Origin: an uncultured Paenibacillaceae bacterium
GTDB lineage: Bacteria > Bacillota > Bacilli > Paenibacillales > K13
Reading direction: 5' to 3'
DNA: 64,000 bases
Assembly: GCA_913056365.1 (NCBI GenBank)
Contig: CAJXLT010000012.1
Location: 1-64,000, forward strand
Below, in pieces: positions 7,582-32,428 of this stretch (the stretch's first letter is position 1; each line of letters opens with the position of its first letter). The position numbers were made by a program, and so were the translations under genes. The notes below the pieces were generated by a model. That model saw only the letters and a list, made by a program, of their open reading frames with translations, made no database searches and had not been told where the DNA came from.

Positions 7582-7810
7582 GTGCTTGATGCGCTGCTGT
7601 GATCTGATCTTGTTGTGATTACGATCATATCATGGGAATGCGCTGTCAATTGTTACGGAACGGTTAAAACTGTGACAGAAATCGGGTGAAACTGTGTCGG
7701 AATTGCGAAGGGGATTTATGTATAACAAAAAGCCGCCCAGATGGAGACATTTTTCTTTACAATTTAATTCGGCAGGAGTATGATTCAGTTTATAATTGAA
7801 TTCATATTCT

Positions 7811-7960
7811 GGATCGCTGAATTTCCGATTAGGAAGACGGGGGAACCACCGTAACATGGGGTGAATCCTTCGGGGAATGCTGTCATATTCCCTGAAGGTA
7901 GGGCTACTCTCAAGGGCCCGAATCCGACAGCTAACCTCGTAAGCGTGCCTGAGAGAGGAT
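7811..7960 (+). ncRNA. c-di-AMP riboswitch (ydaO/yuaA class) aptamer
   Basis: The leader of ktrA holds hallmark blocks of the ydaO class in the right order: GGATCGCTGAAT at the 5' end, GACGGGGGAACCACC, TGGGGTGAATCC, a variable hairpin, GGGCCCGAATCCGACAGC and CTAACCTCGTAAGCG. High c-di-AMP normally turns these switches off, lowering potassium uptake. The gene controlled here, ktrAB, is a classical target in Bacillus. The 7485-7810 gap between the divergent qox and ktr units contains only control DNA. Aptamer ends are approximate. Confidence 0.93.
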
Positions 7961-27522: not shown

Positions 27523-27616
27523 TCATTGAATTGTGTGCCAGTTGTGATTTACAAGCAAATATGGTATCATTGTAGTATCGTGACCAAAGAGACCTATTAT
27601 CGCATTCACATATGGT

Positions 27617-27651
27617 AAAGGGTACCCTGTGGTGAGTCGATGGTACCTTTT
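27617..27651 (+). terminator. Hairpin AAAGGGTACC...GGTACCTTTT
   Basis: Near-perfect 10-base stem followed by TTTTGC, between the ZIP gene and the cold-shock gene. It can be the terminator of the ZIP gene or part of the long cold-shock leader that changes fold with temperature. Confidence 0.6.
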
Positions 27652-27724
27652 GCTATATGTGAATTTTTTATTTGGCGTACGAATAAAGAAAGAACATGTA
27701 AATTTATTGATGGAGGTAATCCAA

Positions 27725-27925
27725 ATGCAAAACGGAACAGTAAAATGGTTTAATGCAGAGAAAGGCTTCGGCTTTATTGAGGTGGAAGGCGGAGACGACG
27801 TTTTCGTTCATTTCAGTGCGATTCAAGGCGAAGGCTTCAAGACTCTGGACGAAGGCCAGCGCGTTCAATTTGATGTGGTTCAAGGCAATCGCGGACCGCA
27901 AGCAGAGAATGTTGTAAAGTTGTAA
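27725..27925 (+). CDS. Cold-shock protein (CspA/CspB family)
   Basis: 66-residue single cold-shock domain. RNP1 (KGFGFIEV) and RNP2 (VFVHFSAI) are intact, and length and the [16 protein letters not shown] start match Csp proteins. It binds single-stranded RNA and DNA as an RNA chaperone. ATG at 27725 follows ATGGAGGTAAT. A leader of at least 70 and probably about 150 nt precedes it, as in other csp genes. A strong terminator follows. Confidence 0.96.
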
Positions 27926-30162: not shown

Positions 30163-30191
30163 TTGACTGCAACCGTGATAATGATTATCAT
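30163..30191 (+). promoter_or_regulatory. Promoter overlapped by a perfect 7-1-7 Fur box
   Basis: TTGACT and TATCAT are separated by 17 bp. The sequence TGATAATGATTATCA at 30176-30190 covers the -10 box and is a perfect Bacillus-type 7-1-7 Fur operator. A second related half, GTGATAATCAT, follows at 30207-30217. Iron-replete repression of the next gene is predicted. Confidence 0.8.
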
Positions 30192-30234
30192 TATAGGTAG
30201 TAATCGTGATAATCATGTGACAAGGAGCGGCGAG

Positions 30235-30462
30235 ATGAAGAAGATCCAATACTGCTGCCGAAATCTGAAGCGATACGAAGCTAAATTTCTATACCAATCC
30301 ATGAAAGACACGCATCCTGAGCTGAAGCATAAGAAGAAGGATTGCTTGGGAGAATGCAAGATGTGCAAGCAGCAATGCTTCGTCAAGGTCGGCAAGCATA
30401 AGCTGCTGTGCAAGCAGTCACCTGATGAATTGTACGCTGCAATTAGCAAGCTAATTGGTTGA
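30235..30462 (+). CDS. DUF1450-family small cysteine protein
   Basis: 75-residue protein of the YuzB/DUF1450 family. It has cysteines CC near residues 7-8 and the cluster CLGECKMCKQQC (residues ~37-48), plus one later Cys, in a very basic chain. Such proteins look like thioredoxin-fold iron or redox proteins without assigned function. The start ATG 30235 lies behind AAGGAGCGG. The Fur box immediately upstream makes an iron-starvation role likely, by inference. Confidence 0.8.
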   Translation: MKKIQYCCRNLKRYEAKFLYQSMKDTHPELKHKKKDCLGECKMCKQQCFVKVGKHKLLCKQSPDELYAAISKLIG

Positions 30463-31628: not shown

Positions 31629-31865
31629 TTAAGCGGCGTAACGGCGAGTACGGGAGCGCGCTGCGATCACTCGAAGCTCATGCAGTAGACGATCCACCTC
31701 ACGTTGCAGCTCGTGCAGTCTTTCGTAGGAACGCGTCTGGAGATCGTCTAATTCTGATGCAGGCATATGTTGAAAATCCGCATAGTTCTGTTCGGGCAGG
31801 CGTTGACTGAGACGATCGATGTTCTCATTGGACAAATTCAGACGAGATGGTGCAGGTACAGTCAT
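31629..31865 (-). CDS. Small basic helical protein of unknown function
   Basis: 78-residue protein. The N-terminal half is polar and proline-containing; residues ~38-70 (ASELDDLQTRSYERLHELQR and on) form a heptad-like helix, followed by an Arg-rich tail ARSRTRRYAA. ATG at 31865 lies eight bases after AAGGAGCG; ATG at 31871 is too near the site. No recognised family. It is convergent with the SDR gene and lies downstream of the orphan RNA unit on the same strand, which might instead be its leader. Confidence 0.6.
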   Translation of the reverse strand: MTVPAPSRLNLSNENIDRLSQRLPEQNYADFQHMPASELDDLQTRSYERLHELQREVDRLLHELRVIAARSRTRRYAA

Positions 31866-32029
31866 GGTCATCGCTCCTTCGACAAGTTTTCCTTATTGTA
31901 AACAGGAAGTATGTGAGCAGCATTAATACGAATCATGACTTTTGTTAAAATTGTCCGTTAAAGTGATTCCAATTGGCTTAGTGGGCAGTAACCAAGCGTC
32001 AAGCTGGGGCGCAGCCTGCAGTGTATAAA

Positions 32030-32296
32030 TTAGACAACCCCTGTTCGCAAGCGAACAGGGGTTTATAGACAGCGTAACCGCTGATGGTTCTTTCCGAATT
32101 TCTTGCACGAAAACAACGAAAGCCCTACCTCTCAATCGTCTCTTGCGGCTCCGTGGCCGCGCCTGTCATGAATCCGTGAATCCTTCTTGCAGCCGCGATT
32201 CATTCATAGAAAAGGAATATTCATACGCCCATGCGAGGAAAGGTGGCGCATGCTTAGAAAGAGGGGAATGTCATTCCCTGAGGTTACACGTCTAAC
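32030..32296 (-). ncRNA. Candidate structured non-coding RNA, about 265 nt
   Basis: A minus-strand transcription unit without an ORF: consensus promoter at 32331-32303, predicted start near 32296, terminator stem at 32036-32063. The RNA folds well by eye: its 5' part GACGTGTAACC pairs with 3' GGTTACGCTGTC (one bulge), closing internal hairpins GGGAA/TTCCC, ATGCG/CGCAT, ATGAATC/GATTCAT and GCGGC/GCCGC, and TCTTTC pairs with GAAAGA. I could not match it to 6S, SRP, RNase P, tmRNA or a known riboswitch. It could be a leader of the small gene at 31629-31865. This fills the 31866-32463 gap together with the palindrome at 32341. Confidence 0.55.
32036..32063 (-). terminator. Terminator of the candidate RNA
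   Basis: AACCCCTGTTCGC and GCGAACAGGGGTT form a 13-base perfect stem with a two-base loop; minus-strand tail GTCTAATTT. Confidence 0.75.
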
Positions 32297-32302
32297 TGTT
32301 CA

Positions 32303-32331
32303 ATAATATCATGCGTGCAAGAGGTTGTCAA
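32303..32331 (-). promoter_or_regulatory. Consensus SigA promoter on the minus strand
   Basis: TTGACA, 17-base spacer and TATTAT (minus strand), starting directly after the terminator palindrome of the phosphorylase gene. Confidence 0.75.
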
Positions 32332-32340
32332 ATATAAGAA

Positions 32341-32428
32341 GACCGTCCCTCAGCTAAGCTAGCAAGGGAGTCCAGTTCATTATGCGGTTAACATCAGGTG
32401 CATGATGAACTAGACTCGTGGGACGGTC
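32341..32428 (-). terminator. 88-bp imperfect palindrome after the phosphorylase gene
   Basis: GACCGTCCC (32341) pairs with GGGACGGTC (32428 end), and GAGTCCAGTTCATTATGC pairs with GCATGATGAACTAGACTC with two mismatches. On the minus strand it follows the gene and is followed by TTCTTATATTT, fitting a terminator, but the size is unusual. Confidence 0.6.

Follow-up and report, generated by a model that had tools for sequence, protein, structure and literature searches.

A stand-alone structured RNA at the BsrC locus of Paenibacillales, encoded opposite to its Rfam model and possibly tied to cold-shock proteins

Introduction

The window analyzed here, a 64,000-nucleotide stretch of DNA from an uncultured Paenibacillaceae bacterium (contig CAJXLT010000012.1), contains an interval for which the initial annotation, made from the letters alone, proposed an orphan minus-strand structured RNA gene that could be 6S-like, a new regulatory RNA or the leader of the gene at 31865. 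This raises several questions: is there an RNA gene of its own at this place; which strand does it occupy; is it known under another name; how widely is it kept; and which genes, if any, does it accompany?

Results

Promoter, terminator and extent of the RNA gene

The elements delimiting the gene are as follows:
32326 to 32331, minus strand: -35 hexamer TTGACA (promoter scan and direct reading)
32303 to 32308, minus strand: -10 hexamer TATTAT, preceded by TG, 17-bp spacer (promoter scan; relatives with a promoter at a comparable position)
32030 to 32297, minus strand: structured non-coding RNA, 5' end predicted at 32297 and 3' end past the terminator, both ends predicted for this strain
32036 to 32063, minus strand: intrinsic terminator hairpin (terminator scan)
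32341 to 32428, minus strand: inverted repeat GACCGTCCC/GGGACGGTC, then T-rich DNA (direct reading)

The sigma-A-type promoter that had been read by eye, TTGACA (32331-32326)-17-TATTAT (32308-32303), is present on the minus strand with 11 of 12 matches and is the best of five promoter-like sites within 3.5 kb, where 3.3 are expected by shuffling; the predicted 5' end lies 6 nt after the -10 box, a placement modelled on a published P. riograndensis transcript (see below). Upstream of the conserved core of the RNA (also below), promoter scores averaged 9.6 across 140 loci vs. 7.95 in shuffles, and reached at least 10 in 65 of the 140. The terminator is there as well, although its stem, initially given as 13 bp, measures 12 bp by the tool (32063-32036), with a 4-nt loop and the T-containing tail GTCTAATTTA; a strict-tail terminator scan of 60 loci missed even this one and was not used. 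The inverted repeat at 32341-32428 is probably the terminator of the upstream gene (GH94 by Pfam), parting that gene from the RNA gene.

The interval had also been described as approximately 265 nt without an ORF, which does not hold to the letter, as a mechanically called 70-aa ORF with a TTG start (31923-32135) overlaps the 3' half of the RNA. The spacing between invariant core columns, however, is 40 nt in 30 of 89 sequences, 41 nt in 55 and 42 nt in four, and therefore neither strand keeps a reading frame. That the locus is a small protein-coding gene, for which that ORF would be the argument, is barely credible when core length differs by 1-2 nt among the 89 sequences while the helices covary. 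The locus thus has its own promoter, its own terminator and no conserved reading frame, as an independent small RNA gene should.

A conserved three-way-junction core and its strand

A covariance model of the core, R1, was built on the RNA's own (minus) strand, and the core was aligned for 89 sequences, which were left from 120 loci after the removal of near-duplicates (at least 88% identity). In the window, the core and the catalogued family at the same place read as follows:
32098 to 32193, minus strand: conserved core (R1 match, E 2.7e-25)
32173 to 32177, minus strand: core helix P1, 5' strand ACGGA (alignment)
32107 to 32111, minus strand: core helix P1, 3' strand TTCGT (alignment)
32145 to 32160, minus strand: core hairpin P2, 32156-32160 with 32145-32149 (alignment)
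32115 to 32140, minus strand: core hairpin P3, 32133-32140 with 32115-32122, loop AGAGGTAGGG at 32123-32132 (alignment)
32103 to 32191, plus strand: match to Rfam RF01410 (BsrC), antisense of the core, 56.6 bits against a gathering score of 38

P1, P2 and P3 are paired in 88.8%, 97.1% and 95.9% of their cells among the 89 sequences, with four of five, four of five and six of eight pairs covarying, i.e., 94.3% of 1602 cells and 14 of 18 pairs for the three minus-strand helices taken together; several letters of the P3 loop are invariant, and P3 of the window sequence contains two U-U mismatches. The covariation score amounts to 0.520 vs. at most 0.161 with partners slid by 1-3 columns.

The same 18 pairs also tell the strands apart. 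A G.U pair reads as A.C on the complementary strand, and the alignment contains 224 G.U vs. 16 A.C cells; this places the true RNA on the minus strand and leaves the BsrC model describing the antisense. That Rfam is right after all, with the real RNA on the plus strand or with both strands transcribed as an antisense pair, is highly improbable: RF01410 was reportedly curated from a B. subtilis report (Saito et al. 2009), and the minus-strand signal would be compatible with a second, plus-strand transcript, but the wobble counts, the placement of both promoter and terminator on the minus strand, the P. riograndensis transcript on the R1 strand, and the sharing of the strand of the cold-shock protein (csp) gene by the element at 34 of 38 csp matches near the core all argue against it.

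Relation to the Rfam BsrC family

The RF01410 match at 32103-32191 coincides with the R1 core (32098-32193), hence the locus is homologous; it is found on the plus strand only in the window, the RNA's own strand giving no match that reaches the gathering score. All 12 further loci checked likewise have BsrC on the strand opposite to this RNA, and its model also matches in the B. subtilis control genome. The RNA is consequently no orphan, as RF01410 covers its locus, if on the antisense strand, and the Rfam search proposed as a check did return a known family, yet on the opposite strand; the suggestion of a new regulatory RNA survives in part, as the locus is already known, but its strand is mis-assigned and its model truncated. 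As the RNA lies at the RF01410 locus and fails on strand, we class it as BsrC in full length and on its true strand, outside the present model.

No other Rfam family scored above threshold at the locus, and a permissive search added just two sub-threshold matches to other families, so the idea of a 6S-like RNA, in the family sense, is dropped; the Rfam 6S models gave no match at the locus, and the SRP and riboswitch identities were rejected on the same grounds. Elsewhere in the window, positions 7805-7960 (plus strand) carry a c-di-AMP riboswitch (RF00379, 99 bits).

In the open-access literature searched for bsrC and RF01410, no description of a BsrC strand error was found. Two further papers were set aside: in PMC11805744, "BsrC" is a strain name and not the sRNA, and PMC5376654 is, by its listing, on a human fibroblast topic.

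The whole fold and its closing helix

The full-length RNA folds at a minimum free energy of -92.4 kcal/mol (z = -3.0), a value that none of 200 shuffles reached; z is -2.0 for the complementary strand of the locus. The two strands closing the fold are:
32282 to 32292, minus strand: closing helix, 5' strand GACGTGTAACC (pairing probability 0.60-0.88)
32068 to 32079, minus strand: closing helix, 3' strand GGTTACGCTGTC (ensemble pairing; helix comparison in relatives)

The pairing between the 5' and 3' parts noticed at the outset is recovered in the ensemble, where GACGTGTAACC (32292-32282) pairs with GGTTACGCTGTC (32079-32068) at a probability of 0.88 over eight inner pairs and approximately 0.6 over three outer ones, and promoter, terminator and fold together bear out the closed-ended structured RNA gene. 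A contiguous-helix test across genomes (the first 40 nt vs. the stretch after the core, with swapped partners as the control) found long closing helices 3 to 6 times more commonly than with swapped partners: six of 25 loci of the order scored at least 10 (1.0 expected), as did 15 of 39 loci of the class at a score of at least 9 (4.3 expected). The difference in a duplex-energy test was modest (real mean -20.2 vs. -17.8 swapped; 12 of 67 loci in the top 5%). Both tests required a promoter score of 9 and a suitable distance, which kept 93 of 140 loci, and the subsequent removal of similar loci left 67 for the duplex-energy test and 25 plus 39 for the contiguous-helix test; the window (L001) appears without its stem in the latter because the 3' stretch taken for it opened 55 nt past the start of the core, a point already slightly within the stem. 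The sequence of the helix varies with its pairing kept (e.g., TTTAACCCC/GGGGTTAAA, AAGGTAACT/AGTTACCTT and AAGTAACTTG/CAAGTTACTT).

Full-length RNAalifold on 14 loci of one clade, which we take to be Planococcaceae-like, did not recover the closing helix and proposed UUCACACUGG/CCAGUGGAA, a pseudoknot with P1. This pseudoknot is suggestive only: by eye, the motif reads GUGGAA in copies with core UUCACAC and GUAGAA in those with core UUCAUAC, A and G core variants likewise accompanying GUAGAA, and the motif is partly misaligned by MAFFT in alignment A3. Two motifs flanking the core were also noted. GTGGAA-n-ACCGCGG is strongly conserved 3' of the core, with TCTGGCATTCTGC 5' of it, in L062, L082, L099, L104, L117 and relatives, and CGGCTGCTGGAA lies 5' of the core in L003 and 3' of it in L136, i.e., on opposite sides in two lineages, its window counterpart CGGCTGCAAGAA being on the 5' side.

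Distribution

Within the order, R1 matched 279 of 296 genomes (249 of 262 when only those of good quality are counted), as one copy in all listed positives but one, and it matched 98 of 100 genomes of one genus; in the class, it was found in 212 of 398 genomes and 79 of 146 genera, with up to four copies, and across the phylum, in 14 of 398 genomes, all 14 within the class, all of these searches having used Infernal's stricter filters, which lose weak matches. RF01410 alone matched 153 of 299 genomes of the class.

A near-universal single copy in the order, closed ends with a long-range helix, invariant loop and junction letters, and neighbors that are not conserved are what a housekeeping ribonucleoprotein RNA (a scaffold, or polymerase/ribosome-associated, like 6S or SRP) might look like, in which case it would not be mainly a csp regulator. 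Such an identity seems unlikely, given that R1 was not found in the 384 other genomes of the phylum sample or in about half of the class sample, that some genera hold up to four copies, that csp adjacency recurs, and that no 6S or SRP model matches at the locus.

Transcription in relatives

RNA-seq of P. riograndensis SBR5 reported a "BsrC sRNA" (s0008) of 322 nt on the minus strand, 688,067 to 687,745 (PMC5670726). In the one-contig genome G414, from another genus of the order, R1 matches at G414:C1:687841-687934, minus strand, with the published start 6 nt downstream of the TATAAT of a TTGCAA-17-TATAAT promoter. G414 appears to be a very close, not provably identical, assembly of SBR5, to judge by this strong coordinate match, and the published transcript would thus fit the strand and position of R1.

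For B. subtilis, published reports place bsrC between ydaG and ydaH and give it an Hfq enrichment of 53.6, the highest among the sRNA-table rows shown, as a co-immunoprecipitation peak for which the strand is lost (PMC3574147), describe the bsrC region on tiling arrays as expressed and joined to the upstream gene (PMC2784878), and list a second Rfam BsrC copy between cspC and ydeB in BSGatlas (PMC8208703). In a B. amyloliquefaciens FZB42 study, a BsrC homologue was not detected (PMC4634765).

Neighboring genes and the question of a leader

Does the RNA serve as the leader of gene 31865? The two are parted by a terminator, this 80-aa gene was found at one of 120 loci, and 22 of 29 loci of the order have their next downstream gene of at least 100 aa in the opposite orientation (one of 30 had none), which leaves the claim unsupported. 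GH94, on the other side, was found at two of 120 loci. Neither in the window nor in the order is there a conserved same-strand downstream gene free of an intervening terminator; a conserved gene on the same strand is seen in the csp lineages only, and the RNA is here independent of its neighbor genes. At L057 and L061, the order is B. subtilis-like, with what we take, by recognition, to be a ydaG-like gene, then the element and, in L061, a presumed ydaH/amj-like gene, all on one strand. A short protein with a sub-threshold DUF1450 match (27.1 vs. 30.1 bits) is encoded at 30163-30462 (plus strand) of the window.

A cis-acting leader everywhere (riboswitch, thermosensor or attenuator), which in the window would belong to the gene at 31865, could call on the resemblance of the three-way junction to an aptamer and on the eight genera that have csp downstream on the same strand, mostly with a terminator-like hairpin in between. 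The intervening terminator, the single occurrence of the 80-aa gene and the opposite strand of the next gene in the order make this reading very unlikely in general, and for the window, it is largely refuted.

Association with cold-shock protein genes

Of the 120 loci, 25 have a csp gene downstream in the same orientation, in 24 cases no more than 245 nt away from the core (L036, one of these 24, matches only in part); a csp gene lies upstream in the same orientation at nine and on the opposite strand at four. By hand count, csp adjacency occurs in 15 genera; the downstream same-strand arrangement is seen in eight, nearly always at 130-245 nt from the core, in a sample that is unbalanced, as 13 of the 25 loci are from one genus. 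In most of these csp leaders, the terminator-like hairpin ATTCACATAT...ATATGTGAATTTTTT, or a close variant, stands between the core and the gene, and an Rfam scan of the L040, L014 and L064 leaders returned the general cspA family only. At L084 and L087, the core comes shortly after a csp gene and immediately ahead of its own terminator, with no clear promoter, an arrangement that suggests core plus terminator as the minimal unit.

In the order containing the window, csp follows in the same orientation at just two of 30 loci, and the csp gene of the window lies 4.1 kb from the RNA gene. The window genome has only three CSD genes, and two of these three csp genes, the one at 27725 in the window and one other, have the csp hairpin without the core, so the hairpin does not need the core. 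In the window, this leader hairpin, ATTCACATAT...ATATGTGAATTTTTTATTT, lies at 27610-27680 (plus strand), upstream of csp 27725, and the same hairpin recurs at the second csp gene of the genome (L158) as well as before csp in several other genera; it looks like a conserved csp attenuator.

Discussion

The locus is almost certainly a stand-alone, sigma-A-transcribed, intrinsically terminated ncRNA of approximately 265 nt, i.e., the true-strand, full-length BsrC. What such an RNA does is a more delicate matter. Its end-closing helix surrounds variable hairpins together with the strongly conserved three-way-junction core (P1, P2 and P3 with its AGAGGUAGGG loop). We envisage as the most likely mechanism that a chaperone-type RNA-binding protein (Csp and/or Hfq) would dock on this core, that the stand-alone RNA, as in the window, would act in trans, and that an element beside csp would regulate it in cis, probably at the terminator-like hairpin of the csp leader. 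This functional part (docking of Csp/Hfq, trans or cis action) is tentative and rather doubtful, as most copies in the order are not beside csp. B. subtilis Hfq, moreover, has limited known roles. The near-certain identity and the doubtful function, taken together, leave the explanation as a whole evenly balanced, and we hold with low to moderate confidence that this is a regulatory RNA tied to the Csp/RNA-chaperone system, the protein partner, the action in trans and the link to cold/stress physiology being inferred.

A bolder version would have a Bacilli-wide, chaperone-linked RNA control cold-shock protein synthesis through antitermination, cis-acting when placed upstream of csp and trans-acting when alone. 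The conserved core segment AUUCACA is also the 5' arm of the terminator-like hairpin of the csp leader (AUUCACAUAU...AUAUGUGAAUUUUUU) and could therefore pair with the 3' arm, UGUGAAU; the window segment, AUUCAUG, still pairs with it via two G.U wobbles, and other core variants (e.g., UUCAAAC) would not. Judged from such complementarity, antitermination is quite improbable.

Several Firmicutes sRNAs block ribosome-binding sites through C-rich loops, and the 5' domain of the RNA could be suspected of acting as a trans-acting antisense sRNA in this manner, being pyrimidine-rich in the order (C 0.207, G 0.157, T 0.349), with the Hfq enrichment of bsrC in B. subtilis (strand lost) pointing the same way. 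C-rich tetramers, however, are hardly above the shuffled level (92 vs. 82.7 at 27 order loci; 25 vs. 24.6 at 40 class loci), and AGAGGUAGGG, the loop with the highest conservation, is rich in purines and so of the wrong sense to block Shine-Dalgarno sequences, which makes this role decidedly unlikely.

What is new here is the true strand, the full length, the three-way-junction core, the near-universality and the csp linkage. If this is right, the catalogue gives an RNA kept by nearly a whole bacterial order the wrong strand and one third of its length, so that automatic annotation looks for its complement, and probes/deletions designed from the catalogue may miss the RNA. A corrected model would give structure-guided mutants, strand-specific testing in B. 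subtilis and a direct question: are Csp proteins regulated by, or do they work through, a dedicated RNA?

Comparison with known systems

6S RNA is of comparable size and has a closed outline, but the RNA described here shows no match to it in the Rfam scans. Among the csp 5' leaders of other Bacilli, those of eight genera have this core ahead of csp and in the same orientation, whereas the RNA of the window is an independent gene, and the window csp at 27725 has the hairpin and no core. CsfG (formerly the "ylbH leader") offers a precedent (PMC3574147) for a conserved Bacillus RNA first put on the wrong strand, the two RNAs not being known to be related. The P. riograndensis s0008 is a 322-nt transcript that shares the strand of R1 and the orthologous position; its authors named it from Rfam, and the accessible portion of their paper (PMC5670726) holds no discussion of the strand disagreement, structure or function. 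With RF01410 BsrC, finally, the locus and the conserved core are shared, but the model comprises only 87 nt and one hairpin on the opposite strand, whereas the RNA described here extends over approximately 265 nt of the other strand and consists of P1, P2 and P3 together with a closing helix.
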